A program made the translations under genes and the position numbers. From a candidate division Zixibacteria bacterium SM23_81 (GTDB taxonomy: Bacteria; SM23-81): a stretch of 15,637 nucleotides of DNA. The first letter of the stretch is position 1, and each line of letters opens with the position of its first letter. The stretch spans positions 1 through 15,637 of the forward strand of contig LJUY01000062.1 in NCBI GenBank assembly GCA_001304015.1, in the 5' to 3' direction. The notes beneath the pieces are model-generated. The model was not told where the DNA came from. It searched no databases and was given only the letters and a program-made list of their open reading frames with translations. Of the stretch, positions 350-14,823 are shown in pieces.

Positions 350-395
350 GTTGTACTAAAAGAGGTTACCCGATTTAACAAAAGGGAGGATGACA

Positions 396-1046
396 ATGAA
401 ACGGCTTATCATACTCACAGTGGCCTTTGTGCTCATGTTCGCCATGTCTTCTTTCGCCTTTGAGCCAGGGCTCACAGGATACGGCCTGAAGGCTGGGGTG
501 AACATGGCTAACTTCAGCGGTGATGATGTTGACATTGAAGGTGCTGATAAAAAAATGAGACTTGGCTTTTCTGCTGGCGGTTTTGTCACATACAGTATCA
601 GCGAGATGTTCGCTCTACAGCCCGAAGTTTTTTATACGATGAAAGGAGCGAAATACGAGGCGGAAGATGGAGACGTCACCTTCAAATATGATTACTTGGA
701 AATACCAGTCTTGGCCAAGGTCACAATACCAACCGAGGGTAATATTGCGCCCAACTTGTTTATCGGTCCTGCGCTTGCTATTAATTTGAGTGCTAAAGCG
801 AAGGCGGATGTGGATATAGGGGGTTATGAAGCTGGGGTGGAGTTAGATGTAAAAGACTGGACAAAGAGCACTGACTTCGGGTTAGTTTTCGGCGCCGGTG
901 TCGATATCGGAATGCCTCACTCGGCAATCACGGTTGACGGCCGGTATGTTTTGGGACTGGCAACAACTCATGAGGCCGAAGAAGGAGAGGAAGAAGAGGA
1001 CATAAAGAACGGAGTGATTTCATTCATGGTTGGATATACCTTCTAA
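396..1046 (+). CDS. Outer-membrane beta-barrel protein (PorT/OMP_b-brl-like)
   Basis: A 216-residue secreted barrel protein. Residues 1-21 form a Sec signal peptide (basic MKR, hydrophobic core, SSFA cleavage site). The rest has alternating amphipathic strands, with phrases typical of small PorT-like barrels: GLKAGVNMANFSG near the mature N terminus, ALQPEVFYTMKGAKYE, YLEIPVLAKV, FGLVFGAGVDI, and a terminal strand ending VGYTF with the aromatic last residue used for BAM recognition. An acidic stretch (EEGEEEED) before the last strand is probably an extracellular loop. ATG 396 is chosen over the in-frame ATG 390 because the AGGGAGG site at 383-389 abuts 390 but lies about six bases from 396. 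Exact role unknown; likely a structural or small-solute barrel. Confidence 0.85.
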   Translation: MKRLIILTVAFVLMFAMSSFAFEPGLTGYGLKAGVNMANFSGDDVDIEGADKKMRLGFSAGGFVTYSISEMFALQPEVFYTMKGAKYEAEDGDVTFKYDYLEIPVLAKVTIPTEGNIAPNLFIGPALAINLSAKAKADVDIGGYEAGVELDVKDWTKSTDFGLVFGAGVDIGMPHSAITVDGRYVLGLATTHEAEEGEEEEDIKNGVISFMVGYTF

Positions 1047-2407: not shown

Positions 2408-3304
2408 CTACCTCGCCACCTTCAAAACCCCTTCCTCCCTCCTGACCGCTAGGTAGATGCCCCCCAGAACCATGACCCCGCCGACCAGCGTCAGCTCAGG
2501 CGGCACTTCACTAAAAACGAAATAAGCCAGCACCGAGGCCCCGATGGGCTCGCCCAGCAGGCTCACGCTGATGATATAGGCCCGTAAATATTTCAAGGCC
2601 CAGTTGAACATGGTGTGTCCCAAGTGAGTGGGGACCAGGGCCAGGAGGATTAGCCACAGGTAAGTCTGTCCGGGATATCCCGCCATCTTGACTCGAAAAG
2701 CCAGACAGCAGACTCCCAGCAGAACAGCCGCGGTGCTGTAGGCCAGGAAGATGTAGGGCAATAAAGGCAGCTCCTGGCGCACCTTGCGACCGGTGACCAT
2801 GTACAGGGCGGCCAGCAGCCCCCCGGCCAGGGCAAGTCCGTTGCCGGTCAGGGTCTCGCGCCCCACCCGCAGGTCGCCTCCACCGATGATGAGGCTGCCC
2901 AGCAGAGCGATGACCACGGCAAGCAGAACGACCCTGGAGACCCTCTCTTTGATGCCGAAGTGGGACAGCAGGACGGCGAAGATCGACTGAGTGGACACCA
3001 GGATCATGGAGCTAGCCACGGAGGTGTAGGACAGGGACGCCACCCAGGTGCCCATGTGAATGCCGAGAAAAAGACCGGCCAGCACGGCTCGCATCAGAAG
3101 AGCCTTGCTCAAGCCGGTCAACTGGGTCCATCCGCGCCATGCTATCAAGGGCACAAGCACCAGGGAGGCCAGGGCCATCCGGTAAAAGGCCACCGCCAGC
3201 GGAGGGGCTTGACACAGCCGGATGAAGATGGCCGCGAAGGAGACGGCGGCGATACCCAGCCCAACAGCAAAATATGGGGGAATCCGAGGTGCCGATTCTT
3301 TCAT
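2408..3304 (-). CDS. EamA/DMT-family inner-membrane transporter
   Basis: A 298-residue, very hydrophobic protein with about ten membrane segments arranged as two EamA repeats. Repeat one includes GIAAVSFAAIFIRLCQAPP, then ALASLVLVPLIAWRG and SLSYTSVASSMILVSTQSIF. Repeat two includes GGLLAALYMVTGRKVRQ, then ALKYLRAYIISVSLLGEP and VGGVMVLGGIYLAVR. The YTSVASS...STQSIF and SVSLLGEPIGASVLAY phrases are typical of drug/metabolite transporters of the RhaT/YdcZ type, which export amino acids or small metabolites. The ATG at 3304 overlaps the TGA of the upstream GNAT gene (ATGA), indicating translational coupling; a TTG two codons earlier is a less likely start. The substrate cannot be told; linkage to two acetyltransferases allows, but does not show, export of an acetylated compound. 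Confidence 0.9.
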   Translation of the reverse strand: MKESAPRIPPYFAVGLGIAAVSFAAIFIRLCQAPPLAVAFYRMALASLVLVPLIAWRGWTQLTGLSKALLMRAVLAGLFLGIHMGTWVASLSYTSVASSMILVSTQSIFAVLLSHFGIKERVSRVVLLAVVIALLGSLIIGGGDLRVGRETLTGNGLALAGGLLAALYMVTGRKVRQELPLLPYIFLAYSTAAVLLGVCCLAFRVKMAGYPGQTYLWLILLALVPTHLGHTMFNWALKYLRAYIISVSLLGEPIGASVLAYFVFSEVPPELTLVGGVMVLGGIYLAVRREEGVLKVAR

Positions 3305-4215
3305 TCCCAAGATCCCGGAATGGTTATATCCCCTCCCACCCGAACAGCCCTCTCCAACGTCTCGCCGCTGAGCTCATAGACCACCACCCGGGTCGGCTCC
3401 TCTAACCGAAATCCCGCTGCCAGCAGGAGCGGTGCCGAGCTCTCCGGCACCATGGAGATGAGTTCCCTGAATCCCAGACGCTCGGCGGCGATTCTGAACT
3501 GTCCGGCCAAAGCCGTTATAGTCCGATCATCTCCGTCTATAACGCCCAGAGCGGCCTTGGGCCCATGGCGCTGCTTCAGGAAAAGGGCCAGCCCGCTGAT
3601 CTTTCCCAGGCTGCGGGCCACCAAAGCCCCTCCTTCAGCCACAACCCGCTCCACAAACGGGCGGTCTAGAGCCTTGAAGATCCAGCCCCAGGCGAAAAGC
3701 CCCTTCATCTGCCGGAAATTTGATGATTTTTCGAGAAGAGCCAGGATTTTATCCACGTCTTCCATCCCACCCTGAGCCTCGCGGGGGAGGTCACCCTTCT
3801 TGGACTGGGCCAATAACCGCCGGCACGGAAAGAGAAACCGAAAGCCGCCCTGTTCTCCCATATGCCTGCTGGCTTGATTGTCGAATACGGTGGAGAACCG
3901 AACGGTGGTTGGTTTCAGTTTTTTCACTATCTCCATAGCCCTCTGGTTCAGAGCCCAGGCGATCCCCTTGGACTGCTGGAGGGGGTCGACTCGCAACCCC
4001 TCCAGCCACACCTCTCCGGGCGCCAGCACCGTGACCTTATTCGTTCCCACAGTTCGGCCATCTAACTCGGCCACCAAGAGAGCCCCGAAAGGCTCTTCCA
4101 GCCACTGATCCCAGACTCGGGGGAGATAGTCGTGACCCTCCCAGATCTTGGCGCTGAAGGAGACGACGGCTTTTCGGTCTGAGGGCCGGGCCTCTCTGAT
4201 GATTAATTTTCCCAC
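3301..4215 (-). CDS. GNAT-family N-acetyltransferase
   Basis: A 304-residue protein with an N-terminal GNAT fold (about residues 3-130): LIIREARPSDRKAV opening, GALLVAELDGRTVGTNKVTVL strands, then motif A LEGLRVDPLQQSKGIAWAL (72-90), where QQSKGIA replaces the usual Q/R-x-x-G-x-G/A acetyl-CoA loop. The HDYLPRVWDQWL segment near residue 28 and this layout recall histidine N-acetyltransferase (NAT16-like) proteins, but that is only a resemblance. The C-terminal half (about 150-300) looks like a second, degenerate GNAT-like half with GGALVARSLGKISGLALF. Start: GTG 4215, preceded by GAGGAG six bases upstream. It lies 125 bp after the Eis-like gene and is coupled to the EamA transporter. Substrate unknown. 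Confidence 0.85.
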   Translation of the reverse strand: MGKLIIREARPSDRKAVVSFSAKIWEGHDYLPRVWDQWLEEPFGALLVAELDGRTVGTNKVTVLAPGEVWLEGLRVDPLQQSKGIAWALNQRAMEIVKKLKPTTVRFSTVFDNQASRHMGEQGGFRFLFPCRRLLAQSKKGDLPREAQGGMEDVDKILALLEKSSNFRQMKGLFAWGWIFKALDRPFVERVVAEGGALVARSLGKISGLALFLKQRHGPKAALGVIDGDDRTITALAGQFRIAAERLGFRELISMVPESSAPLLLAAGFRLEEPTRVVVYELSGETLERAVRVGGDITIPGSWE

Positions 4216-4340: not shown

Positions 4341-5519
4341 TCAGAAGATGTCGTTCATGTAGGGTCGGGATTCGCGGAAGATCTCATGGGCCAGCTCCAG
4401 AGCTCGTGAATCGTGAATCTGCACCCGGCCAATGGCCACCGCCTCTTCGAAATTTAAATAGCCGCAGTAAATCTGGGTAAGGGTAAGGATGTCACAGGAC
4501 AGGTCAACAGGATCCTGAGTTTCTTCCAACTTGCCTTGGCCATTGGACACGCTGAGGCGAAAAGTCCCTTTGTTCCAGGACGCCAGAGAGTCCTCGAGCT
4601 GGAAGACCATCTCTCCCCGGGCCTCTGGCCAGTAGTCCTTACTCTCCCAGGCCGATTTGAGGTCCACGATGCGAGCCATGAAGGAGGGCTTGATCCTGAC
4701 CTCCATGCGGGGATTGTTCAGATAGCAGATGGTCAGATCGTCAATCGGGACGGTCAAAATAACCTTCTGGGCTTGAGAGCGGTGATTGAAAAGAAAGTTG
4801 AGAAGCCCGCAACGCGCCTCATGGTCCAATGCAATCAGTTCTCTCACCTGGACGGTCCGTTTGAACTCCCCGTGATCGACGATTTCGTAGATGATGTATC
4901 CTCGGATGTTCCCCCTGGATTGCCACAGGTAGGAGTGCCTTTTCCGCTCAGCCCCCATCATTACCCATTTCCGCCAGTATTGCTCATCCCGGACCAAGGA
5001 GCAGGTTCGCCCTTTAGAAAAGGTCTCGTATATTTCATTGATGATGGCGATCTTTTCGGGGCCTGCGGGCACCATTTCTCCCGGAGGCGTCGGGATTCCG
5101 GAGAGGGCTGATAGGTCAAGGGTATAGATCTTCCAATCTCCAGCATGTTCGTACCCAAACCTGCGGTAGTACTCGAAAGAGAAGGGGAAGAGAATGGAGA
5201 TGGGAAATTCTCTCTGGCGCATCTCCTCGATACAGTGTTCCATGAGATGACGCACATACCCGCGACGTCGTTCCTCCGGAGGGGTGGCCACCCAGGCGAT
5301 CCTACCCATGGGGATGGCTTTTTGGTTGAACCAAACCTTCCCGGGAAGGAGCTGCAAGCCCGACTTCATCTTACCATCGCGGAACAAAGCCCTGGTGGCA
5401 GACAGGTCCAGGTCATCTCCGAGATAATGCTTCACTTGGTTGGGAGCAAGCACGAAGGCTTGGGTGATAATCTCGCGGAAACGGCTCAGTTCTGCGCGCC
5501 GTATTTTTCGTATTTCCAC
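4341..5519 (-). CDS. Eis-type GNAT acetyltransferase with SCP2-like C-terminal domain
   Basis: A 392-residue protein of the Eis (enhanced intracellular survival) family, which acetylates amines such as aminoglycosides or lysines using acetyl-CoA. Motif A reads VATPPEERRRGY (about 77-88), the R-R-x-G-Y/x acetyl-CoA loop. The family-specific ISILFPFSFEYYRRFGYE follows at about 107-124. A second GNAT-like region sits mid-protein. The C terminus (about 280-392) matches the SCP2-like domain: ARIVDLKSAW, then GTFRLSVSNGQGKLEE, and an end of RPYMNDIF. The length suits the family. I chose GTG 5519 because AAGGAA lies six bases upstream and the protein then starts MEIRKIRRAEL, like relatives; ATG 5546 (GGAG touching it) and TTG 5552 are alternatives. 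Not closely mycobacterial; substrate unknown. Confidence 0.9.
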   Translation of the reverse strand: MEIRKIRRAELSRFREIITQAFVLAPNQVKHYLGDDLDLSATRALFRDGKMKSGLQLLPGKVWFNQKAIPMGRIAWVATPPEERRRGYVRHLMEHCIEEMRQREFPISILFPFSFEYYRRFGYEHAGDWKIYTLDLSALSGIPTPPGEMVPAGPEKIAIINEIYETFSKGRTCSLVRDEQYWRKWVMMGAERKRHSYLWQSRGNIRGYIIYEIVDHGEFKRTVQVRELIALDHEARCGLLNFLFNHRSQAQKVILTVPIDDLTICYLNNPRMEVRIKPSFMARIVDLKSAWESKDYWPEARGEMVFQLEDSLASWNKGTFRLSVSNGQGKLEETQDPVDLSCDILTLTQIYCGYLNFEEAVAIGRVQIHDSRALELAHEIFRESRPYMNDIF

Positions 5520-5630
5520 ACCGAGTTCCTTCTGTAGGTACTTCATCTCCAACGCATTCGCAGCGCGTGGTGACAGTGACCATCTTCTGAAGGCAAAAGG
5601 TGGCTGATGTGCCCAAGCACCTAGAACAGG

Positions 5631-6254
5631 TCACCTGGATAACTTTTGCCAGTGCAATGCTGGTGCTTTTCTCCGGACCATCTCTTTCCACTCATGTAAA
5701 AGAGAAAGGGACTTTTTGGCATTGTCCGCGTTGTAAATAAATGCTTTTTCTGGCATCATCTCCGCCAACAGCTCCGGCCTATGCTGCGAGGCCCATTCAA
5801 TAAGAGGGTCGAGTATTTTCCCAATGGCTTGCTCCGTCTCGGGAGCCAGCTCTGCTCTCACAGACTGTATCAGACCGTTTCGGACCATAAAAGTTGCCAT
5901 GTAGCGAGCTCTCTGAATGCCGGAAGCCTTGAGCCAATCGTTTGTCTCCTCCAACTGACACATCACCGAATCGCCCCTGGTTCTGAATTGGTCACAAGAC
6001 ATATGGATGTTCAGGACAAAATCATATTCTGTCAACTCTCGGACTTGCTTTTTGCCCTGAAGCGAAACTTGTCCAATTATCTCAAAGCTTGCATCTTCTG
6101 CGTACAAGGCCAGCACTCCATCCAGATCGTGATTATTGTAAGCCTCCTGGTAAGATTTGACGATGCTGGCAGGCTTCGGTGAACAGGATAGGGCAGCGAA
6201 GATCAACAAGGACAGAACGGAGAGAAAGACATCCCAGTTTCTCTTCTCTCTCAT
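5631..6254 (-). CDS. Putative lipoprotein with NTF2/SnoaL-like domain
   Basis: A 207-residue protein. Residues 1-24 form a signal sequence (REKR, hydrophobic core LSVLSLLIFAALS) ending at Cys24. The lipobox AALSC is loose, so lipidation is likely but not certain. Residues about 28-140 read as an NTF2/SnoaL-like fold: SIVKSYQEAYNNHDLDGVL, LYAEDASFEIIG, then LQGKKQVREL and a final strand FMVRNGLIQSVRAE. Such domains bind small ligands or act as loose isomerase-like scaffolds; no catalytic residues can be assigned. The C-terminal helix-rich tail (145-207) is unassigned. The start is secure: AAGGAGG lies nine bases before ATG 6254. It starts 33 bp after the mutY stop, so the two are probably co-transcribed, though no functional link is evident. 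Confidence 0.75.
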   Translation of the reverse strand: MREKRNWDVFLSVLSLLIFAALSCSPKPASIVKSYQEAYNNHDLDGVLALYAEDASFEIIGQVSLQGKKQVRELTEYDFVLNIHMSCDQFRTRGDSVMCQLEETNDWLKASGIQRARYMATFMVRNGLIQSVRAELAPETEQAIGKILDPLIEWASQHRPELLAEMMPEKAFIYNADNAKKSLSLLHEWKEMVRRKAPALHWQKLSR

Positions 6255-6287: not shown

Positions 6288-7400
6288 TTAGCAGCCAACT
6301 TGAGCTCTCAAGGCCGCGGCCAACTTCTGATCAGCCCGAGGGAGGGCATAACGTTGGAGCTCGGGGATCTGAATCCACTTAAAGGCAGCACAGCCCAGGG
6401 GCCGAGGTCTCCCTTTCAGATAGGTGCAGTGAAAGGCATGCAGGGTGAACCGAAAATGTGAATAGCCATGCTTTAAGCTCATGAAGGGTTCCTCCACCCG
6501 AATGTGGATGCCCAGCTCCTCCCGGATCTCTCGACGCAGACATTGCTCTAGGGTCTCTTCCTTTTCCTGCTTGCCGCCGGGGAATTCCCACAGCCCACCC
6601 AGCAGTTTATCGTGTTGGCGCTGAGCGATGAGGAAGTGCTTCCCCCTCCAGATGATCCCAGCGGTGATATCAAAGTGAGGTCTGGGTGGGCGGGGGGTGA
6701 GGCGTGGCAGGCTTTCAGGATCCCCAGACGCATACCCCGCACAGAGAGCGGAGAGGGGACAGCGGGCACATTGTGGATTTGTGGAACGACAGATCAGGGC
6801 GCCGAGATCCATCAGGGCCTGATTGAAGGGGCCGGCCCATTTCGCTGGCTGCAAGGTTTTCGCCAAGTCTAGAAGGCGCTTGTGTTGAGCGCGGATTCGT
6901 GGATCACCCTGCAGCAGAAAGGCGCGACACAAAATCCGAATGGCGTTGCCATCTAGGACGGGCCAAGCCCCTTGGTAGGCAAAGCTTGCTACGGAAGCTG
7001 CTGTGTTGTAGCCCACGCCTGGCAGAGCTTGCAGGGTTGACAGCTCGGACGGGACCCGGCCCCCGTGTTCTGTGAGAATGATCTGAGCGGCCCGGTGAAG
7101 ATTTCGAGCTCGAGCGTAATACCCCATACCTTCCCATAACTTAAGAACTCGATCCAGGGGAGCCTCCGCCAGAACCTTGAGCTCTGGAAAGGTCTCCAGA
7201 AAGCACGGATAATAACGCAGGACTCGCTCCACCTGGGTCTGTTGCAGCATGATCTCTGAGACCAAAATATGATAGGGATCCTGGGTATGTCGCCAGGGCA
7301 GATCTCGTCCATGTTCTTTATACCAGTCCAAGAGCCTGCGCGCAAACTGTCTGGCTACGCGGGAAGTGGGTATGATATCCAACTGTTTTTCTTCGATCAT
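6288..7400 (-). CDS. mutY: A/G-specific adenine DNA glycosylase MutY
   Basis: Base-excision repair enzyme that removes adenine mispaired with 8-oxoguanine. All family hallmarks are present (numbering from ATG 7400): catalytic Glu in SEIMLQQTQ (48-56); the helix-hairpin-helix LPGVGYNTAASV (126-137); catalytic Asp150 in VLDGNAIRI; and the [4Fe-4S] loop Cys204-X6-Cys211-X2-Cys214-X5-Cys220. A C-terminal NUDIX-like 8-oxoG recognition domain carries LWEFPGGK, a complete-looking Nudix box ending REIREELGI, and HGYSHFRFTLHAF. The usual K/R after VLDGN-V is I here (NAIR). Start: ATG 7400 has AAAGGG nine bases upstream; GTG 7442 and ATG 7436 are in-frame alternatives lacking a ribosome binding site, and relatives begin close to the DWYKEHGR segment. 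Head of the minus-strand gene run. Confidence 0.95.
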   Translation of the reverse strand: MIEEKQLDIIPTSRVARQFARRLLDWYKEHGRDLPWRHTQDPYHILVSEIMLQQTQVERVLRYYPCFLETFPELKVLAEAPLDRVLKLWEGMGYYARARNLHRAAQIILTEHGGRVPSELSTLQALPGVGYNTAASVASFAYQGAWPVLDGNAIRILCRAFLLQGDPRIRAQHKRLLDLAKTLQPAKWAGPFNQALMDLGALICRSTNPQCARCPLSALCAGYASGDPESLPRLTPRPPRPHFDITAGIIWRGKHFLIAQRQHDKLLGGLWEFPGGKQEKEETLEQCLRREIREELGIHIRVEEPFMSLKHGYSHFRFTLHAFHCTYLKGRPRPLGCAAFKWIQIPELQRYALPRADQKLAAALRAQVGC

Positions 7401-7442
7401 CTTCCCCAGCCCTTTGATCTCTGCAGACGCTTTCATCTTCAC

Positions 7443-7654: not shown

Positions 7655-7683
7655 TTGATTCTTGTGAAAGCATCTTATAATAT
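7655..7683 (+). promoter_or_regulatory. Probable sigma-70 promoter of the purine cluster
   Basis: TTGATT at 7655-7660 is followed 17 bp later by TAATAT (7678-7683); the overlapping TATAAT at 7676-7681 gives a 15-bp spacer. Start would fall near 7689-7691, leaving a leader of about 190 nt before the preferred purA start at 7882. Confidence 0.55.
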
Positions 7684-7690
7684 AACCGAA

Positions 7691-7770
7691 GGCATTTGGC
7701 GTATCTCAAACCAGAAAGTCCTTTAATTCGTTGTAATGTAAGTTATTGTGCCCACCAGAACCCAAATGCC
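7691..7770 (+). promoter_or_regulatory. Possible long-range helix in the purA leader
   Basis: GGCATTTGG at 7691-7699, at the predicted transcription start, is perfectly complementary to CCAAATGCC at 7762-7770. Pairing would close a 62-nt domain, similar in size to compact riboswitch domains. The interior does not match the purine, ZTP, PRPP or ppGpp riboswitch cores I know. A nine-base match over this distance could be chance. Confidence 0.25.
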
Positions 7771-7881
7771 CAAGGAGCTTCTTCAAGGCTCGGTTTAGAA
7801 AAAGTTCCTGATGAATTTCTTCCCTTTTTGAGCCAACCAGCTTATTCCTTTTCCCATTTTACAAAACAAGGTAGGTTTGGC

Positions 7882-9333
7882 GTGTCCTTGGGTCGACTTC
7901 TCGACGGGGTCCAGACAATAGCCATTCTCTGCAATCAATGGGGAGATACCGGGAAGGGTAAGTTCTCAGATTACTTCGCATCCCAATGGGCGGATGTCAT
8001 CGCTCGAGGAACTGGAGGAAACAATGCTGGTCACACCGTTGTGAACGATGGAAAAGAAAAAGTCTTTCGATCACTGCCAGCTGGGATCGCTTATGACCAT
8101 CTGGGGAAAATAAATGTTCTGGGAAACGGCATGGTTCTCGACCTTCAGGTGTTATCTGAGGAACTCGATGAGCTCCAAAAAGAGGGCATGAGCTACAACA
8201 ACCTTCTCATCAGCGAGGATGCGCACGTCGTTATGCCCTATCACATCTCCAGAGATAAGGCCTGGAACCAGACGCAGAAGGACGGAGGCATCGGTTCAAC
8301 GGGAAATGGAATCGGCCCTTGTTATGCCGACAAAATCGCCCGGCGCGGAGTGAGGATAGGCGACTTATTTGACAAAGATCTCCTGGCAAATAAGATAAAA
8401 AGGGCATCGGCTTTTTACCCAGAACACAAATTGGACCTTGAGGAGGTCTTGAGTCGTATCTTACCTCTGGCGGAGAAAATAAGACCTCTGGTGAAGGATA
8501 CGGTTGTTCACATGCAAGGCTTTCTGAAACGGGGGAAAAAGATCCTTCTGGAAGGTGCCCAAGGCTTGTTGCTCAGCATAGAACACGGAACGTATCCGTA
8601 TGTGACCTCATCTGACTCTTCGCTTAACGGCACAGCCGCAGGAGTGGGCCTTTCGGCCAAGGTCGTCGATCTACCTCTGGGCACCATCAAATTCCCTTTC
8701 ATGACCCGGGTCGGTGGTGGCCCCTTCCCCACGGAACTGGGTTCGACCACGGCAGAAGAGTACTGCGGAGGGGAGGGGATCACCAAGCTATTTGAGCTCA
8801 AGAAATATCGAATACCTTATGTGAAGAGGGATGGAGGGATTCACTACGATTGCCATCATCGGACAATTCTAAATTTGATGAATTCAAAAGATCCCTTCGA
8901 ACAGGGCGTTGGGATCAGACTTGCGGCCTCTGAATACGGCGCCGTGACTGGCAGACCGCGAAGAATCGGTTGGACGGACGCCGTGGCCGCCAGGTATGCC
9001 ATCGAGGCGAATGCCACCTTTAATATAATCTTGACCAAAACGGATGCTGTCGCGGGTGCCGAGCATTTTCGTGTCTGTTACGGGTATAAGCAGGGTCCAT
9101 CTACATTAACCACCTTTCGCAGAGCCCCACAGTTCTTGAGAAGTGTGCGCCCATCTTATTCCCAGTATGAGGGATATGGAGACATCAATTCCCTCAGGGA
9201 CGAGGCCAACCTGCCCCAGAGCCTGCGAGGTGCTATCGGGGATTTCGAGAAATTCACAGGATCTTCGGTCGCTATTGTCTCGGTGGGCCCCCAGCCCGAT
9301 CAAACCATTGTGACAGGTGAGGCGGGAAGATGA
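7882..9333 (+). CDS. purA: Adenylosuccinate synthetase, divergent with large insertion
   Basis: Makes adenylosuccinate from IMP, aspartate and GTP, the first step to AMP. Numbering is from GTG 7882 (483 residues). The P-loop-like NQWGDTGKGK keeps the catalytic Asp22 but has T where GDEGKGK has E. NAGHT (48-52) supplies the catalytic His. STGNGIGPCYADKIARRG keeps the ARRG arginines but has N for the usual R in TGRGIGP. EGAQG and HGTYPYVTSS (235-244), GAVTGRPRR aspartate loop (353-361) and TKTD guanine motif (385-388) follow. Between GPFPTEL and that loop there are about 65 residues where E. coli has about 14. The frame extends upstream to TTG 7696 without an ATG; GTG 7882 follows AAGGTAGG by six bases and fits family N termini. 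The retained Asp argues against phage PurZ. Stop overlaps purC (ATGA). Confidence 0.9.
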   Translation: MSLGRLLDGVQTIAILCNQWGDTGKGKFSDYFASQWADVIARGTGGNNAGHTVVNDGKEKVFRSLPAGIAYDHLGKINVLGNGMVLDLQVLSEELDELQKEGMSYNNLLISEDAHVVMPYHISRDKAWNQTQKDGGIGSTGNGIGPCYADKIARRGVRIGDLFDKDLLANKIKRASAFYPEHKLDLEEVLSRILPLAEKIRPLVKDTVVHMQGFLKRGKKILLEGAQGLLLSIEHGTYPYVTSSDSSLNGTAAGVGLSAKVVDLPLGTIKFPFMTRVGGGPFPTELGSTTAEEYCGGEGITKLFELKKYRIPYVKRDGGIHYDCHHRTILNLMNSKDPFEQGVGIRLAASEYGAVTGRPRRIGWTDAVAARYAIEANATFNIILTKTDAVAGAEHFRVCYGYKQGPSTLTTFRRAPQFLRSVRPSYSQYEGYGDINSLRDEANLPQSLRGAIGDFEKFTGSSVAIVSVGPQPDQTIVTGEAGR

Positions 9334-10409
9334 CCAGAGGCGAGTTCATCCGAAAAAAGGTTTCGGAGAATTTACAGCACGCGATGAAGGATGCCGAAAT
9401 CCCTGAATTGGGTGGTGGAAAGAGAGGGAAGGTGCGGCATGTCTACAGCGCTGCAGATGCTCATGGCGAGGACATATTGATCATCTCGACATCTGATCGG
9501 GTCTCCGCCTTTGACGTTGTTCTAGATCGAGCCATCCCCTACAAAGGGGCTATTCTCAATGCCATTGCCAAATGGTCATTCGATCAGACACAAGACATCA
9601 TCCCCAACGCTTTGCTCCGAATGCCCTGTTCGCACATCATGATACAAAAGGAGCTGGTGAACATAGGATTTGAGTGCGTGATGCGCGGATACATGTGGGG
9701 CAGCTTGGCCACAGATTATGAAAAGGGAATGAGAGAAAAGTGCGGCCTCCCTTTGATGGAAGGGCTGTTAAGATATCAAAAACTGGCACCGCCCCTGTTC
9801 ACGCCGACCACGAAAGCCCGGAGGGGACATGATCGCGATGTGACTTTTGAGGAAATGGCGGTTTCCCTCCAGCAAACTCTCAACCCCCAGGGATCCGCTG
9901 TGAATGGTTGGATCCTGGCCCGAAAGGTAAGGGAGATCTCCCATCTGCTCTATCGACGAGGAGAACAGCTGGCTCGCAAGGTGGGATTGACCCTGGTGGA
10001 TACGAAATACGAGTTCGGCCTAGACAGCTCGGGAAACCTGTATTTGATCGACGAAATTCATACGCCGGATTCCTCACGATACGTGGTCTTTTCTGAGTGG
10101 AAACAAAAGTGGTCTGGCATCCAGACAACTATGGAAAGCGGAAAGTGGCCCAATGTGACCCAATTGCTGCAGGATCACCCAGAGTTCAAGGTCCAGGAGT
10201 TATCGAAACAGCTGGTCAGAGACCTGCTCATCGAGCGTGGCTATGACCCGAATTCAGGAGGCAGCGTTACCCTGCGCGATGAAGATGTCGTTGAGACCTC
10301 CGCCAGATACATCGAGCTGTACGAACGGCTGACCAGGCATGAGTTTGACTTTAAGGTCGATGTTCCTGATGGCAACGGCATCACCGCAACGGACGCCTCC
10401 CGTCCATAA
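9330..10409 (+). CDS. purC: SAICAR synthetase PurC, long form
   Basis: Ligates aspartate to CAIR with ATP to form SAICAR, step eight of purine synthesis. Signatures in order: GKVRHVY (33-39), STSDRVSAFDVV (53-64), IPYKGAILN, RGYMWGS (119-125), FTPTTKA (157-163), DTKYEFG (224-230), DEIHTPDSSR (241-250) and KQLVRDLL (293-300), ending near ARYIELYERLT. At 359 residues it is longer than E. coli PurC (237) and than the roughly 300-residue yeast/actinobacterial type it most resembles. The extra length lies in a segment around residues 258-290 that replaces the short loop before SKQLVRDLL, and in a tail of about 20 residues after YERLT. ATG 9330 overlaps the purA stop (ATGA), so translation is probably coupled. 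Product feeds PurB two genes downstream. Confidence 0.93.
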   Translation: MTRGEFIRKKVSENLQHAMKDAEIPELGGGKRGKVRHVYSAADAHGEDILIISTSDRVSAFDVVLDRAIPYKGAILNAIAKWSFDQTQDIIPNALLRMPCSHIMIQKELVNIGFECVMRGYMWGSLATDYEKGMREKCGLPLMEGLLRYQKLAPPLFTPTTKARRGHDRDVTFEEMAVSLQQTLNPQGSAVNGWILARKVREISHLLYRRGEQLARKVGLTLVDTKYEFGLDSSGNLYLIDEIHTPDSSRYVVFSEWKQKWSGIQTTMESGKWPNVTQLLQDHPEFKVQELSKQLVRDLLIERGYDPNSGGSVTLRDEDVVETSARYIELYERLTRHEFDFKVDVPDGNGITATDASRP

Positions 10410-10420
10410 GGACAGAACAC

Positions 10421-11941
10421 ATGATCAAAATTGTCGATTGTGGCAGCCAATTGACCCAGAACATCGCCAGAAGAGTTCGTGAGCTGGGAGTTTTTGCGGA
10501 GATCGTGCCCTTTCATACCAGCACAAGAGAGATCTTGAAGGATGGCTTGGAGGGGGTCATCATCTCCGGCGGACCCTTCAGTGTCCATGACGAAGGCGCT
10601 CCCATGTATGAGAGACAGATCTTGACCGCCGGGCTTCCCGTCCTGGGCATCTGCTACGGACAACAATCGCTGGCCCATCTTTTGGACGGGAAAGTGGTGT
10701 CCGCGGAAAATCGGGAGTACGGGGAGACTCAGATTCACATTCACAAGGAGAGTCGACTTTTTGAGGGAATACCCCGGGCGGAGTTTCGAGTTTGGATGAG
10801 TCACGGAGATGTGGTCCAGGGAGTCCCCGAGGGTTTTCGGGTCATCGCAAAATCGAAAAACAACCATATCGCTGCCATCCAGAAAGACCATATCTACGCG
10901 GTACAATTTCATCCAGAGGTTGATCATACCGAGTACGGAAGGAGCATGTTAGACAATTTTCTGAAAGTTTGTAATGCCCGTAGGGATTGGGAGCCGGAGA
11001 GAGAATATGACCGCATCGTGTCTGAGACGACAGAAAAGATAGGCGCAAAGGCAGGAGTTGGTGGTATAAGCGGCGGGGTAGATTCATCAACCCTCTCGGT
11101 TCTGTTGCGAAAGATCGCGGGAAGGCGGTATCATCCCATATTCGTCGATAATGGCCTGCTGAGGCTCAACGAGGTTGAACAGGTCAAGGCCAGCCTGGAA
11201 CCCTTTGATTTGGGCGTCACATATATCGATGCTCAGGCGAGGTTTCTTTCAAAATTAAGGGGTGTCGCCGATCCCGATGAAAAGAGAAAGATCATCGGCC
11301 ACGAGTTCATCCGTGTTTTTGAGGAACAGGCCCGAGATATTCCTCAGACGAAATACCTGGCCCAAGGAACCCTTTACCCGGACGTCATCGAAAGCGTTCC
11401 CGTGTATGGAGCTTCGTCCAAAATCAAAAGACACCACAATGTGGGCGGTCTCCCAGAGGACATGAAACTGGAGGTCGTGGAACCCTTTCGGCGCCTGTTT
11501 AAGGACGAGGTCAGGGCCATAGCGGAAAGCAAGTTGGGTTTGCCAAAGGAAATCGTCTGGCGGCATCCATTTCCGGGCCCGGGGCTGGCCGTGCGGATCG
11601 TTGGAGAAGTCACGGAGCAGAAATTGTCTATTCTCAGAAAGGCCGATGCCATATTTATCGAAGAGCTAAAGAAAATGGGCATCTATTATAAATTAAGTCA
11701 GGCGTTTGCCGTACTGACCAATGTCAGCTCCGTGGGGGTTATGGGGGATGAACAGACCTATCAGGGCGTCATTGCGCTGCGTGCGGTGACCACCAGCGAC
11801 TTCATGACCTCTGATTGGTATGACTTTCCAAAAGAACAGATGACCCACATCGCCAATCGAATGATCAATGAGGTCAACGGTGTCAATCGGGTCGTTTACG
11901 ATGTCAGCCAAAAGCCGCCCAGCACCATCGAATGGGAATGA
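10421..11941 (+). CDS. guaA: GMP synthase (glutamine-hydrolysing)
   Basis: Converts XMP to GMP using ATP and glutamine. The 506-residue protein has an N-terminal class I amidotransferase domain opening with IKIVDCGSQLTQNIARRV, and with nucleophile Cys78 in GICYGQQ and the His164/Glu166 pair in VQFHPEVDHT. The ATP-pyrophosphatase PP-loop SGGVDSS is at 217-223. The C-terminal dimerisation domain has HHNVGGLPE, then RHPFPGPGLAVRI, and ends KPPSTIEWE, nearly the canonical ending. FVDNGLLR follows the PP-loop as expected. The N-terminal GSQLTQ has L for the usual Y. An AGGA site overlaps the purC stop eight bases before ATG 10421, 11 nt after purC. Length is slightly below E. coli's 525. A guaA between purC and purB in one operon is an uncommon order. 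Confidence 0.95.
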   Translation: MIKIVDCGSQLTQNIARRVRELGVFAEIVPFHTSTREILKDGLEGVIISGGPFSVHDEGAPMYERQILTAGLPVLGICYGQQSLAHLLDGKVVSAENREYGETQIHIHKESRLFEGIPRAEFRVWMSHGDVVQGVPEGFRVIAKSKNNHIAAIQKDHIYAVQFHPEVDHTEYGRSMLDNFLKVCNARRDWEPEREYDRIVSETTEKIGAKAGVGGISGGVDSSTLSVLLRKIAGRRYHPIFVDNGLLRLNEVEQVKASLEPFDLGVTYIDAQARFLSKLRGVADPDEKRKIIGHEFIRVFEEQARDIPQTKYLAQGTLYPDVIESVPVYGASSKIKRHHNVGGLPEDMKLEVVEPFRRLFKDEVRAIAESKLGLPKEIVWRHPFPGPGLAVRIVGEVTEQKLSILRKADAIFIEELKKMGIYYKLSQAFAVLTNVSSVGVMGDEQTYQGVIALRAVTTSDFMTSDWYDFPKEQMTHIANRMINEVNGVNRVVYDVSQKPPSTIEWE

Positions 11942-11942
11942 C

Positions 11943-13370
11943 ATGGCCAATCCGAATATCCTGTCGGCAAGATACGCCACCCCGGAGATTAACGAGATCT
12001 TCTCGCCTCAGGGCAAGATAGTGGCAGAAAGAGATCTCTGGATCGCGGTGATGAAGGCGCAACGGGAGCTGGGCGTCGATATTCCGGCAGAGGTTATCGA
12101 GAAATATGAGGCCGCCAGATTAAACGTGAATATGGGGCTGATCGCCTCCATCGAGAGAAAAACGAAACACGATATCAAGGCCAGGATTGAGGCTTTTATA
12201 CAGGCCGCAGACACGGGAGAGCACATTCACAAGGGCATGACCAGCAGAGATCTGACAGACAATGTGGAGCAGATGCAGATTCTTCGGGCATCGAAGATCG
12301 TCTTTGGAAAGTATGTTTCGGTCTTGAGGCATTTTCTGGACAAAGCCCACCAGTATCGGGACATCATTCTGGCTGGGAGAACACATCATCAGCCGGCCCA
12401 ACCCACTCTTTTGGGCAGAAGGATAGCCATGTGGGCGGAAGAGCTGTATCACCATCTGGAAACCTACGAAGCCTTCATAGAGAGCTATCCCCTGCGGGGT
12501 GTGAAAGGCCCGGTGGGAACCCAGCTGGATATGTTGGCCCTTTTGGGAAGTGGAGACAAAGTCATCAGGTTAGAGGATATGGTGGCCAAGCAGCTCGGCT
12601 TTGGGCGTGTTCTCGAAGCGCCCGGCCAGGTATACCCCAGATCCATGGATTATGCTCTCCTGGTCAGCCTGGCCGCTTTGGGCTCGGCATGTGAGAATTT
12701 CGCCAAGGGCATGCGGTTGATGTCGGGATTCGAGTTGGTGACGGAGGGTTTTGGGGAAGGGCAGGTGGGCTCCAGTGCCATGCCCCACAAGATGAACACC
12801 AGGAATTGCGAGAGAATCTGTGGATTCGCCGAGCTGCTGAAGATGTACGCCGATGGCGCATCACGGCTGGCTGGCGACCAATGGGAGGAAGGGGATGTGT
12901 CCTGTTCCGTGGTCAGAAGGGCCATCATTCCCGATGCCTTTTACGTATCGGATGGATTGTGCGAGACGACCTTGACCGTCCTGAACGAGATGGGTCCTTA
13001 TCCAGTTATGCTGGAGGCAGAGGTGGACAGATATCTGCCCTTTCTGGCCACAACAGAGATCCTCAACGCTGCGGTAGTAGCGGGAATGGGTCGGGAGGCG
13101 GCCCACGAGATCATCAGGCAGCACGCGATTTCGGAGGCTCTGCGAATGAGACGAGAGGGGAAACCGCCCCGTCTGGCAGAGAAACTTGCCCAAGCCCCAG
13201 TTTTTAAAAAGGCGGGCATCACCGAGGAGAAAATAGAATCCCTGCTCCAGGACAAAAAGCATTTCGTGGGCAATGCGCAGCGGCAAATTGCAGCCGTCGT
13301 CAAAAAGGGTCGCGAGTTGATCGGGAAGTACGAAGCTCAGTCAAAATATGAGCCGCAAGGCATTCTCTGA
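11943..13370 (+). CDS. purB: Adenylosuccinate lyase
   Basis: Fumarate-releasing lyase used twice: SAICAR to AICAR and adenylosuccinate to AMP. From ATG 11943 it is 475 residues. Features: TKHDIKAR (74-81), MTSRDLTDNVEQ, the catalytic-His segment GRTHHQPAQPT (145-155), and the superfamily signature GSSAMPHKMNTRNCE (276-290) with the catalytic serine loop. The signature plus LAGDQWEEGDVSCSVVRR and RYLPFLATTEIL closely resembles the actinobacterial/mycobacterial PurB subtype rather than the E. coli or B. subtilis forms (KRNP). ATG 11943 begins one base after the guaA stop, with GGGA at 11934-11937 as a weak ribosome site; frames starting earlier would lie inside guaA. With PurA and PurC upstream, it supplies the shared lyase of both aspartate-transfer steps. 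Confidence 0.95.
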   Translation: MANPNILSARYATPEINEIFSPQGKIVAERDLWIAVMKAQRELGVDIPAEVIEKYEAARLNVNMGLIASIERKTKHDIKARIEAFIQAADTGEHIHKGMTSRDLTDNVEQMQILRASKIVFGKYVSVLRHFLDKAHQYRDIILAGRTHHQPAQPTLLGRRIAMWAEELYHHLETYEAFIESYPLRGVKGPVGTQLDMLALLGSGDKVIRLEDMVAKQLGFGRVLEAPGQVYPRSMDYALLVSLAALGSACENFAKGMRLMSGFELVTEGFGEGQVGSSAMPHKMNTRNCERICGFAELLKMYADGASRLAGDQWEEGDVSCSVVRRAIIPDAFYVSDGLCETTLTVLNEMGPYPVMLEAEVDRYLPFLATTEILNAAVVAGMGREAAHEIIRQHAISEALRMRREGKPPRLAEKLAQAPVFKKAGITEEKIESLLQDKKHFVGNAQRQIAAVVKKGRELIGKYEAQSKYEPQGIL

Positions 13371-13380
13371 CCCGAATTGT

Positions 13381-13427
13381 TTGTGGAAGGCGCCCGAGCC
13401 TTTAGCAGAAGCTGATGTCGTCCACAA
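13381..13427 (+). repeat. Small inverted repeat after purB
   Basis: TTGTGGA (13381-13387) is complementary to TCCACAA (13421-13427) across a 33-nt loop, starting 11 nt after the purB stop. No T-run follows, so it is not a standard terminator. Confidence 0.3.
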
Positions 13428-13442
13428 TATATCCTCTACGGA

Positions 13443-13587
13443 AGTCGGTTAACGGTATCGAGGCTCGTAACGGCATTCGTGTGTCGTCTATCGTCAATCG
13501 AATGAAAATAATCATGAACAAGGCGACTACGACATTCGCTATGCGATAAACGACGGACGTAACGAGCTTCGAAACCGCCAAACGATT
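13443..13587. repeat. Large imperfect palindrome between purB and purM
   Basis: Two arms of about 55-60 bp (13443-13504 and 13533-13587) are inverted copies of each other around a 28-nt centre. GGTATCGAGGCTCGTAACG (13454-13472) matches the reverse complement of 13558-13576 at 16 of 19 positions. The inner arms, 13483-13504 and 13533-13554, match at 17 of 22. About 7 extra bases in the left arm need a bulge. CGTCAATCG (13492-13500) also recurs inverted at 13583-13591. It could be a small MITE-like or REP-like element, or a folded mRNA element in the spacer before purM. Confidence 0.65.
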
Positions 13588-13653
13588 GACGAGTCATTTA
13601 TCCCTGATGGGCACAAAGCAACTTTATGAATCGATTAGGCTAAGAGAGGAAAC

Positions 13654-14823
13654 ATGAGCAGTCCAACTAGAAGGCACAACTCAGGGGATTACGAAAAAAG
13701 AGAACAGAAGGCCATCCACAACGGGAAGCGGGCTCTCTCCAAGGCGCCATGGCTGTTTAACAGAACCCCAGCCCGTTCAAAGAACTTTTTCTTCCAGCTC
13801 AAAGAAAACGACGCCGTTCATCCGGGCTATTACGCCGTGCATTGTGTGGATGGTGTGGGAACGAAATTGTTCCTCAGCGCCTGGTCCAGCAACTATTCCC
13901 TGCAGCCCATCGACGCCATCGCCATGAGCGCCAACGATCTGGCCACGGCGATTCACGCCCTGCCGGACACCGTGGATCTGTACTTCGCCGTTCAACATGG
14001 CGTTGAAGAGCATCATATGGAAGAGATCATGGGAGGGTTCGTCGATGCGCTGGAGAAGATTCGCATTCCAGGCGCTCCCTTCGGTCCCAATATGGGAAAA
14101 ATAGAAACCGCCTCTCACGACGAGATGGTCTCCCTGGGCGTGCCCGGCAAAGGCTGGGATGTGGGCGTCGTGGTCACCGGTTATATCCCCAAAGAGAAGG
14201 TTCCCAAACTGGATCCCCAACCGGGCCATTTCATCGTTGGTGTGGCGTCAAGCGGGGCGCACAGCAATGGGTATACCAGTGCCAGGCATGTTCTCTTTGG
14301 GCCAGATGTGGAATATCGGGAGGAATGGAAAAGCCAATATCGGGGCAGGTTCCAATTTGATGACCGGCCCGCCGTGTTAGAGGGTCTCACCGTGATGGAG
14401 GCCCTCCAAGTGCCCACGGCCATTTATCTGGCCGACGCGGCCGCCATCGGAGAGGCATTCGACGACCGAGACCTCTATGGTGTCAACATCACGGGCAACG
14501 GATTGGCCAATTTCAATCGCGCCGGCCAGGGAGTTTCCTTTGAGATCACCGAGCCTTTGGAGCCCCTGCCTATACACAAGCTGCTCATCCAGGAATCGGG
14601 ATGGAGCCCCCAGGAGGCGTATGGGAAGCAGAACATGGGCATGGGCTTCGCCTACCTGGTCCCCTCCCTGGAAATGGCCGAGGGCGTTGTGGAAATCCTT
14701 CGCCAGAGAGGCGAAAACAGGGCCAGGATCGTGGGCGAAGTGCGCAAGAATGAGGGAAAAACCCTGCGTACCACCATTCATAAGCCATATGAAGGACCAC
14801 CTGTGGACTTCGTGGGGTATTGA
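13654..14823 (+). CDS. purM: Divergent PurM-type AIR synthetase
   Basis: Probable phosphoribosylformylglycinamidine cyclo-ligase, the ATP-dependent step from FGAM to AIR. The 389-residue protein shows PurM order: VDGVGTKL (65-72), IDAIAMSANDLA (86-97, matching DLVAMCVNDI), VGVASSGAHSNGYTSARHVL (195-214), VNITGNGLANF (277-287, where HITGGGL is usual), and QNMGMGFAYLVP (326-337), ending IVGEV. It differs from ordinary PurM (about 345 residues) by a basic N terminus of about 30 residues, by lacking GGETAEMPG (the region reads MGKIETASHDEM), and by a changed first strand. It could have a different but related substrate within the PurM/SelD/HypE/ThiL superfamily; the DGVGTKL and SGxHSNGY motifs favour PurM. 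ATG 13654 follows AGAGAGG. It stands 283 bp from purB on the same strand. Confidence 0.75.
   Translation: MSSPTRRHNSGDYEKREQKAIHNGKRALSKAPWLFNRTPARSKNFFFQLKENDAVHPGYYAVHCVDGVGTKLFLSAWSSNYSLQPIDAIAMSANDLATAIHALPDTVDLYFAVQHGVEEHHMEEIMGGFVDALEKIRIPGAPFGPNMGKIETASHDEMVSLGVPGKGWDVGVVVTGYIPKEKVPKLDPQPGHFIVGVASSGAHSNGYTSARHVLFGPDVEYREEWKSQYRGRFQFDDRPAVLEGLTVMEALQVPTAIYLADAAAIGEAFDDRDLYGVNITGNGLANFNRAGQGVSFEITEPLEPLPIHKLLIQESGWSPQEAYGKQNMGMGFAYLVPSLEMAEGVVEILRQRGENRARIVGEVRKNEGKTLRTTIHKPYEGPPVDFVGY

Follow-up and report, generated by a model that had tools for sequence, protein, structure and literature searches.

A purine gene cluster in a Zixibacteria-related bacterium with PurM and PurA affiliated to DPANN archaea

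Introduction

Why do several purine enzymes encoded at one bacterial locus depart together from the standard sequences of their families? This question is raised by contig LJUY01000062.1 of candidate division Zixibacteria bacterium SM23_81, which we analysed over its whole length of 15,637 nucleotides (hereafter the window). The window comprises the entire contig (G000:C95, 15.6 kb), which belongs to a metagenome-assembled genome (MAG) of 3.07 Mb (92.6% complete, 4.05% contamination), and carries purA, purC, guaA, purB and purM, in that order, on the + strand. A sequence-only reading had offered two explanations, the housekeeping set of a divergent lineage or a duplicated set with a role in making a modified purine. 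We consider it likely that the genes belong to the housekeeping purine pathway of a small Zixibacteria-related family, and that horizontal acquisition from DPANN-type archaea has replaced much of that pathway.

Most discussion of DPANN archaea presents them as reduced cells that depend on a host, and they are usually seen as receivers or dependants, not donors. Nucleotide pathways have been annotated in about a third of Woesearchaeota, and many DPANN archaea lack purine synthesis (PMC8407392). Gene sharing between DPANN symbionts and their hosts is known (PMC7414124), and archaeal purine genes are patchy and shaped by transfer (PMC3261824).

PurM and PurA group with DPANN archaea

The window PurM contains the AIRS_C domain and conserves the DGVGTK, HSNG and NMG motifs. 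In the sister genus of the same family, represented by Candidatus Zixiibacteriota CSMAG_1598 (G001, also a MAG), purM heads a purM-purE-purO-purV-guaB-purF-purSL-purQ operon. From its family, its motifs and this linkage, the window protein is predicted to be an aminoimidazole ribonucleotide (AIR) synthetase, and the genome holds no better PurM candidate. Archaeal sampling comprised the phylum of the DPANN genome G042 together with solved structures. A peptide-pattern scan for PurM across one genome per species, which is not exhaustive because it requires short exact peptide matches, returned four loci. One was in G001; the other three were in DPANN archaea, at 61-70% identity, and one of these three lay on a contig of 1.3 Mb. 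Among 371 genomes of the DPANN phylum, six carried PurM at 57-69% identity and about 20 more carried largely full-length matches at 37-41%. Across 386 genomes of relatives (384 of them outside the family), no PurM outside the family exceeded 37% identity or 111 bits.

A careful tree of 44 PurM sequences placed the two family sequences as sister to the DPANN genome G041 (100/99) within a DPANN clade, and further DPANN clades lay outside the clade that holds the bacterial family; a larger quick tree was also made. In the approximately unbiased (AU) test, a grouping of the family with bacteria was rejected (p = 1.9e-46, at a cost of 97 log units), as was a DPANN-only clade without the family (p = 0.008). 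These p-values are somewhat optimistic, because both groupings were chosen after the first tree had been seen. The AlphaFold model of PurM, built from five sequences, was too poor for use, with a mean predicted local distance difference test (pLDDT) score of 35.

The results for PurA pointed the same way. The protein gave a full-length PF00709 match over residues 77-538 of a long open reading frame, and its QWGDTGKGK, NNAGHT and TGRPRR motifs were intact when aligned to solved PurA. It fell under the NCBIfam equivalog cut-offs (385.5 versus 402 and 369.4 versus 395.6 bits), with the alignment split by an insert, and the PurZ model fitted it far worse (125 versus 300). From its family and motifs, it is predicted to be an adenylosuccinate synthetase. 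The insert is about 50 residues long and lies before the conserved GAVTGRPRR motif. The segment from GPFPTEL to GAVTGRPRR spans 66 residues in the bacterial family, 45-95 in insert-bearing DPANN archaea and 15-17 in all 29 other bacteria, so that the insert is a rare indel common to the family and DPANN and found in none of those 29; five DPANN PurA sequences with a 15-residue segment fall among bacteria in the tree.

Full-length PurA homologues at 55-63% identity were found in 12 DPANN genomes, and identity over the full length reached about 37% at best in the sampled bacteria. Of the 386 genomes of relatives, 307 have a PurA; none outside the family scored above 241 bits, and the alignments broke at the insert. 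In a quick tree, the three family sequences and 20 DPANN rows together formed a clade of 23 rows with support 100; the AU test rejected a grouping of the family with bacteria (p = 6.9e-51). The AlphaFold model of PurA, from two sequences, was unusable (mean pLDDT 32). Interdomain transfer involving DPANN archaea is thus indicated in two ways, by supported nesting of PurM and PurA and by the rare indel shared in PurA.

GuaA and the other purine enzymes

In a small tree of 11 sequences, GuaA joined a pair of DPANN sequences with 100/100 support. It was 68-71% identical to this pair, whereas the best bacterial records among the matches listed did not exceed 50.8%. For the other enzymes, the best DPANN identities were 65% for PurE, 61% for PurSL, 60% for GuaB, 53% for PurQ, 48% for PurV and 44-45% for PurO. 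Bacterial controls, taken from a plasmid collection, cover GuaB (34%) and PurSL (41%); the values for PurE, PurQ, PurV and PurO stand without a bacterial control.

Two kinds of GuaB coexist in the DPANN phylum. In many DPANN genomes (L191-L209), the gene immediately upstream of an insert-bearing PurA encodes a GuaB of a quite different kind (26-31% identical), and L049, L131 and L209 have a GuaB of the same type as that of the window genome (57-60%). Separately, a 55-kb plasmid of Saprospira grandis (L212, NC_016936.1 1-27907) carries a nearly complete purine cluster with guaA, guaB, a PurSL-like gene, purQ, purH, purC, purB, purD, purN and purF; its PurSL is 40% identical to that of the family.

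Taken together, these data are most economically explained by an ancestor of the family that would have gained PurM and PurA from Woesearchaeota-like DPANN archaea and probably GuaA, PurE, GuaB, PurSL, PurQ, PurV and PurO as well, in place of its bacterial versions, and that would have retained a bacterial-type PurB and perhaps PurF. The sequences would look odd because the ancestor took its enzymes from DPANN archaea. Since two genera carry the genes, the transfer would be older than their split. Direction into the bacterium is well supported for PurM and appears less firmly so for the other genes, which may have arrived in one transfer or in several. With less assurance, we lean towards the broader view that this lineage swapped most of its de novo purine synthesis for a DPANN-derived mosaic, which would imply long and close contact between archaea and bacteria.

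Several points weigh against such a history. The closest DPANN match differs from gene to gene across DPANN genomes and no single donor operon was found, which implies an unsampled donor or several transfers. With archaeal sampling centred on the DPANN phylum, the genes may have come directly from some other group of archaea, and the donor's identity is the least secure element of the account. Only two close DPANN relatives of GuaA are known and the family does not form one clade in the GuaA tree, so that transfer of this gene may have run either way. PurB shares about 50% identity with its actinobacterial counterparts and no more than 31% with DPANN sequences, and neither PurF nor PurC lies closer to DPANN than to bacteria; the import was therefore not wholesale. 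Furthermore, all family genomes are metagenome assemblies.

Direction of transfer and genomic context

The same sequence similarities could have arisen in reverse, if the divergent set originally belonged to the bacterial family, or to a wider group of bacteria not yet sampled, and DPANN archaea acquired it. DPANN genomes are indeed mosaic, with patchy pur genes and in some cases a quite different PurA, GuaB or PurM, and the DPANN GuaA pair adjoins a family sequence in the tree. However, the bacterial PurM is a twig within DPANN diversity, with the DPANN clade lacking the family rejected as above; the 20 DPANN rows of the PurA clade are more diverse than its three bacterial rows; and no bacterium outside the family among the 386 genomes of relatives has such a PurM or PurA. 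We therefore regard this reverse course as unlikely.

Mis-binning, with archaeal contigs placed in a bacterial genome, would be a very improbable source of the pattern, even though the MAG has 4% contamination and at least C48 among its contigs appears foreign. The purA gene adjoins mutY, SnoaL-like, GNAT and EamA genes on three contigs from two MAGs, and outer-membrane beta-barrel genes lie in the window. The guanine-cytosine (GC) content of the pur genes (52-59%) equals that of their neighbours, in contrast to about 31-47% around most DPANN homologues. Given the mutY, EamA and outer-membrane flank, the locus therefore sits in a bacterial chromosome.

Contig C48 (L014, G000:C48:1-7591; 7.6 kb) carries the second of two PurA matches in the genome, cut by the contig end. 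Its gene neighbourhood is that of the window, with purA opposite mutY followed by SnoaL-like, GNAT, EamA and outer-membrane protein genes. The encoded proteins are 55-74% identical to those of the window, about the same distance as for G001. C48 is thus a diverged counterpart of the window's left-hand part, without the Eis-like acetyltransferase, and is probably the same locus from another (third) family member, present as bin contamination. That its purA might be an ordinary housekeeping copy was ruled out by its same divergent type, its same insert and its syntenic contig.

Two vehicles were considered and rejected. For a viral one, IMG/VR gave no PurM relative, and its single PurA match was 25% identical. 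For a plasmid one, the best matches in the plasmid collection were 28% for PurM and 36-37% for PurA, and no PurM of this type occurred on the Saprospira plasmids.

Copy number and the remaining pathway

The purC, guaA and purB genes each occur once in the genome, all inside the window. The AIR-synthase C-terminal domain gave eight matches in the genome, namely the window purM, two within PurL, HypE, SelD, ThiL and two unassigned HypE/ThiL-like proteins, with no second PurM among them. AIR-synthase-family proteins at L016 (9065-10072) and L018 (6842-7957) fit HypE, ThiL and SelD models, all under cut-off. The sequence-only reading had seen no PurF, PurL, PurE, PurH or GuaB in the window, and these functions were located on contig C57, where the gene order is purE, purO (PF07826, 95 bits), purV (a PurH1-only formyltransferase for aminoimidazole carboxamide ribonucleotide, AICAR), guaB, purF, purSL (992 residues) and purQ. 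In G001, purA-purC-guaA stands opposite mutY on a contig separate from that of the purM operon. The family PurE at L015 (3329-3871) scored only 72 bits, where the cut-off is 150, and may represent a PurE subtype of its own.

Because purC, guaA and purB are single-copy and the remaining pathway lies on C57, the window cluster and the C57 operon together are the housekeeping de novo purine pathway, with purD, glycinamide ribonucleotide transformylase and purK outside this inventory. With activities assigned from family membership and conserved motifs, PurM would convert formylglycinamidine ribonucleotide to AIR, PurE, PurC and PurB would carry AIR to AICAR, and PurV with PurO would close the ring to inosine monophosphate (IMP); PurA with PurB would then lead to adenosine monophosphate (AMP), and GuaB with GuaA to guanosine monophosphate (GMP).

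PurC- and PurB-like enzymes are reused in formycin- and coformycin-type pathways. A duplicated set adapted to such a modified nucleoside is hardly credible here, since the second purA in the bin, which might have favoured it, evidently stems from a relative's version of this locus on a contaminant-like contig, purC, guaA and purB are single-copy, no tailoring genes are in view in the window, the motifs in the alignments are intact and GuaA and PurB score above their equivalog cut-offs, so that copy number refutes it unless an ordinary set lies in the approximately 7% of the genome absent from the assembly. The search for second copies, which the sequence-only reading had proposed as the deciding check, accordingly came out in favour of its housekeeping alternative and against the specialised set; the DPANN affiliation behind the divergence had not been visible to it.

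Gene layout of the window

The compact purA-purC-guaA-purB arrangement followed by purM on the same strand, as originally described, was borne out by coordinates and family matches (Table 1). The purA and purC genes overlap by 4 nt, purC and guaA are 11 nt apart, guaA and purB 1 nt, and purB and purM 283 nt. The description of the members as divergent applies to PurA, PurC and PurM, which score under curated family cut-offs, but not to GuaA and PurB, which score as ordinary members. The start of the feature had been set at position 7655, whereas homologues place the purA start at the GTG codon at 7882; the purB start is likewise corrected, to 11943.

Table 1. Features of the window, with strand and the evidence for each assignment
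Feature	Position	Strand	Evidence
purA, predicted adenylosuccinate synthetase, DPANN-archaeal type	7882..9333	+	PF00709 398 bits, insert length, tree, DPANN homologues
purC, predicted SAICAR synthetase (PRK12607-like), only genome copy	9330..10409	+	PF01259 173 bits
guaA, predicted glutamine-hydrolysing GMP synthase, only copy	10421..11941	+	NF000848 703 bits (cut-off 400)
purB, predicted adenylosuccinate lyase, only copy	11943..13370	+	TIGR00928 375 bits (cut-off 326)
purM, predicted AIR synthetase, DPANN-archaeal type	13654..14823	+	TIGR00878 99 bits (cut-off 236)
mutY, neighbour transcribed divergently from purA, bacterial context marker	6288..7442	-	TIGR01084 301 bits; synteny
EamA-family transporter, in conserved bacterial flank	2408..3310	-	PF00892; synteny
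Outer-membrane beta-barrel protein, bacterial context marker	390..1046	+	PF13568 87 bits

Upstream of purA, no Rfam match reached the gathering threshold, with a single chance-level one at E 0.73, and neither a sigma-70-like promoter nor a terminator was found between 7300 and 8000. A SnoaL-like gene with a lipoprotein-type start (5631-6254) adjoins mutY in all three family loci. An Eis-like GNAT/SCP2 acetyltransferase gene (4341-5552) splits flank genes that adjoin each other in the other two. At the right end, a gene that continues past the contig end (15184-15636) encodes a GNAT protein resembling AAC(6')-type aminoglycoside acetyltransferases, at 114 bits versus a cut-off of 265 and thus far under the resistance-gene threshold.

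Implications and comparison with known systems

The bacterium's only purM and guaA, together with purA, fall in clades shared with DPANN archaea, which suggests that DPANN archaea can donate central metabolism. This affiliation explains why automated annotation finds these genes odd, and the PurA insert and the PurM clade provide concrete markers for finding bacterial partners of DPANN archaea. A limited search of the open literature found no report of DPANN purine transfer to bacteria and none of a purine link between Zixibacteria and archaea; the direction into the bacterium and the number of enzymes involved appear to be new.

With formycin- and coformycin-type clusters, the locus shares PurC/PurB-like enzymes only; unlike them, it shows no duplication and no tailoring genes, and other pathway genes lie elsewhere in the genome. 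Canonical PurA and PurM (Escherichia coli 1ade and 1cli) share with the window proteins their families and the motifs QWGDxGKGK, AGHT and TGRxRR, and DGVGTK, HSNG and NMG, respectively. The window proteins differ from canonical bacterial ones in identity (at most about 37%), in the PurA insert and in a PurM score far under the curated cut-off. The use of PurO and a PurH1-only protein for the last two steps resembles archaeal variants of de novo purine synthesis, as in Halobacteria (PMC3261824), but the combination here occurs in a bacterium; PurO-like genes have been reported in only 22 of 1266 bacteria (PMC6797443).

The closest comparison is with DPANN loci (Nanobdellota/Woesearchaeota), among them L049 (NIOZ-UU113), L050 (PL23a_bin.96), L051 and L199 (G168), the last with the order guaA-guaB-purA-purN-purO-purV. 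None was seen to combine all the genes in the order found in the bacteria; PurB, PurF and PurC differ, and in GC content the genes match the bacterium. The likeness extends across PurM (57-70% identity), PurA (up to 63%, with an insert of the same kind), GuaA (71%), PurE (65%), GuaB (60%) and PurSL (61%), and purM and purE are adjacent both in the DPANN locus L049 and in the bacterial G001.

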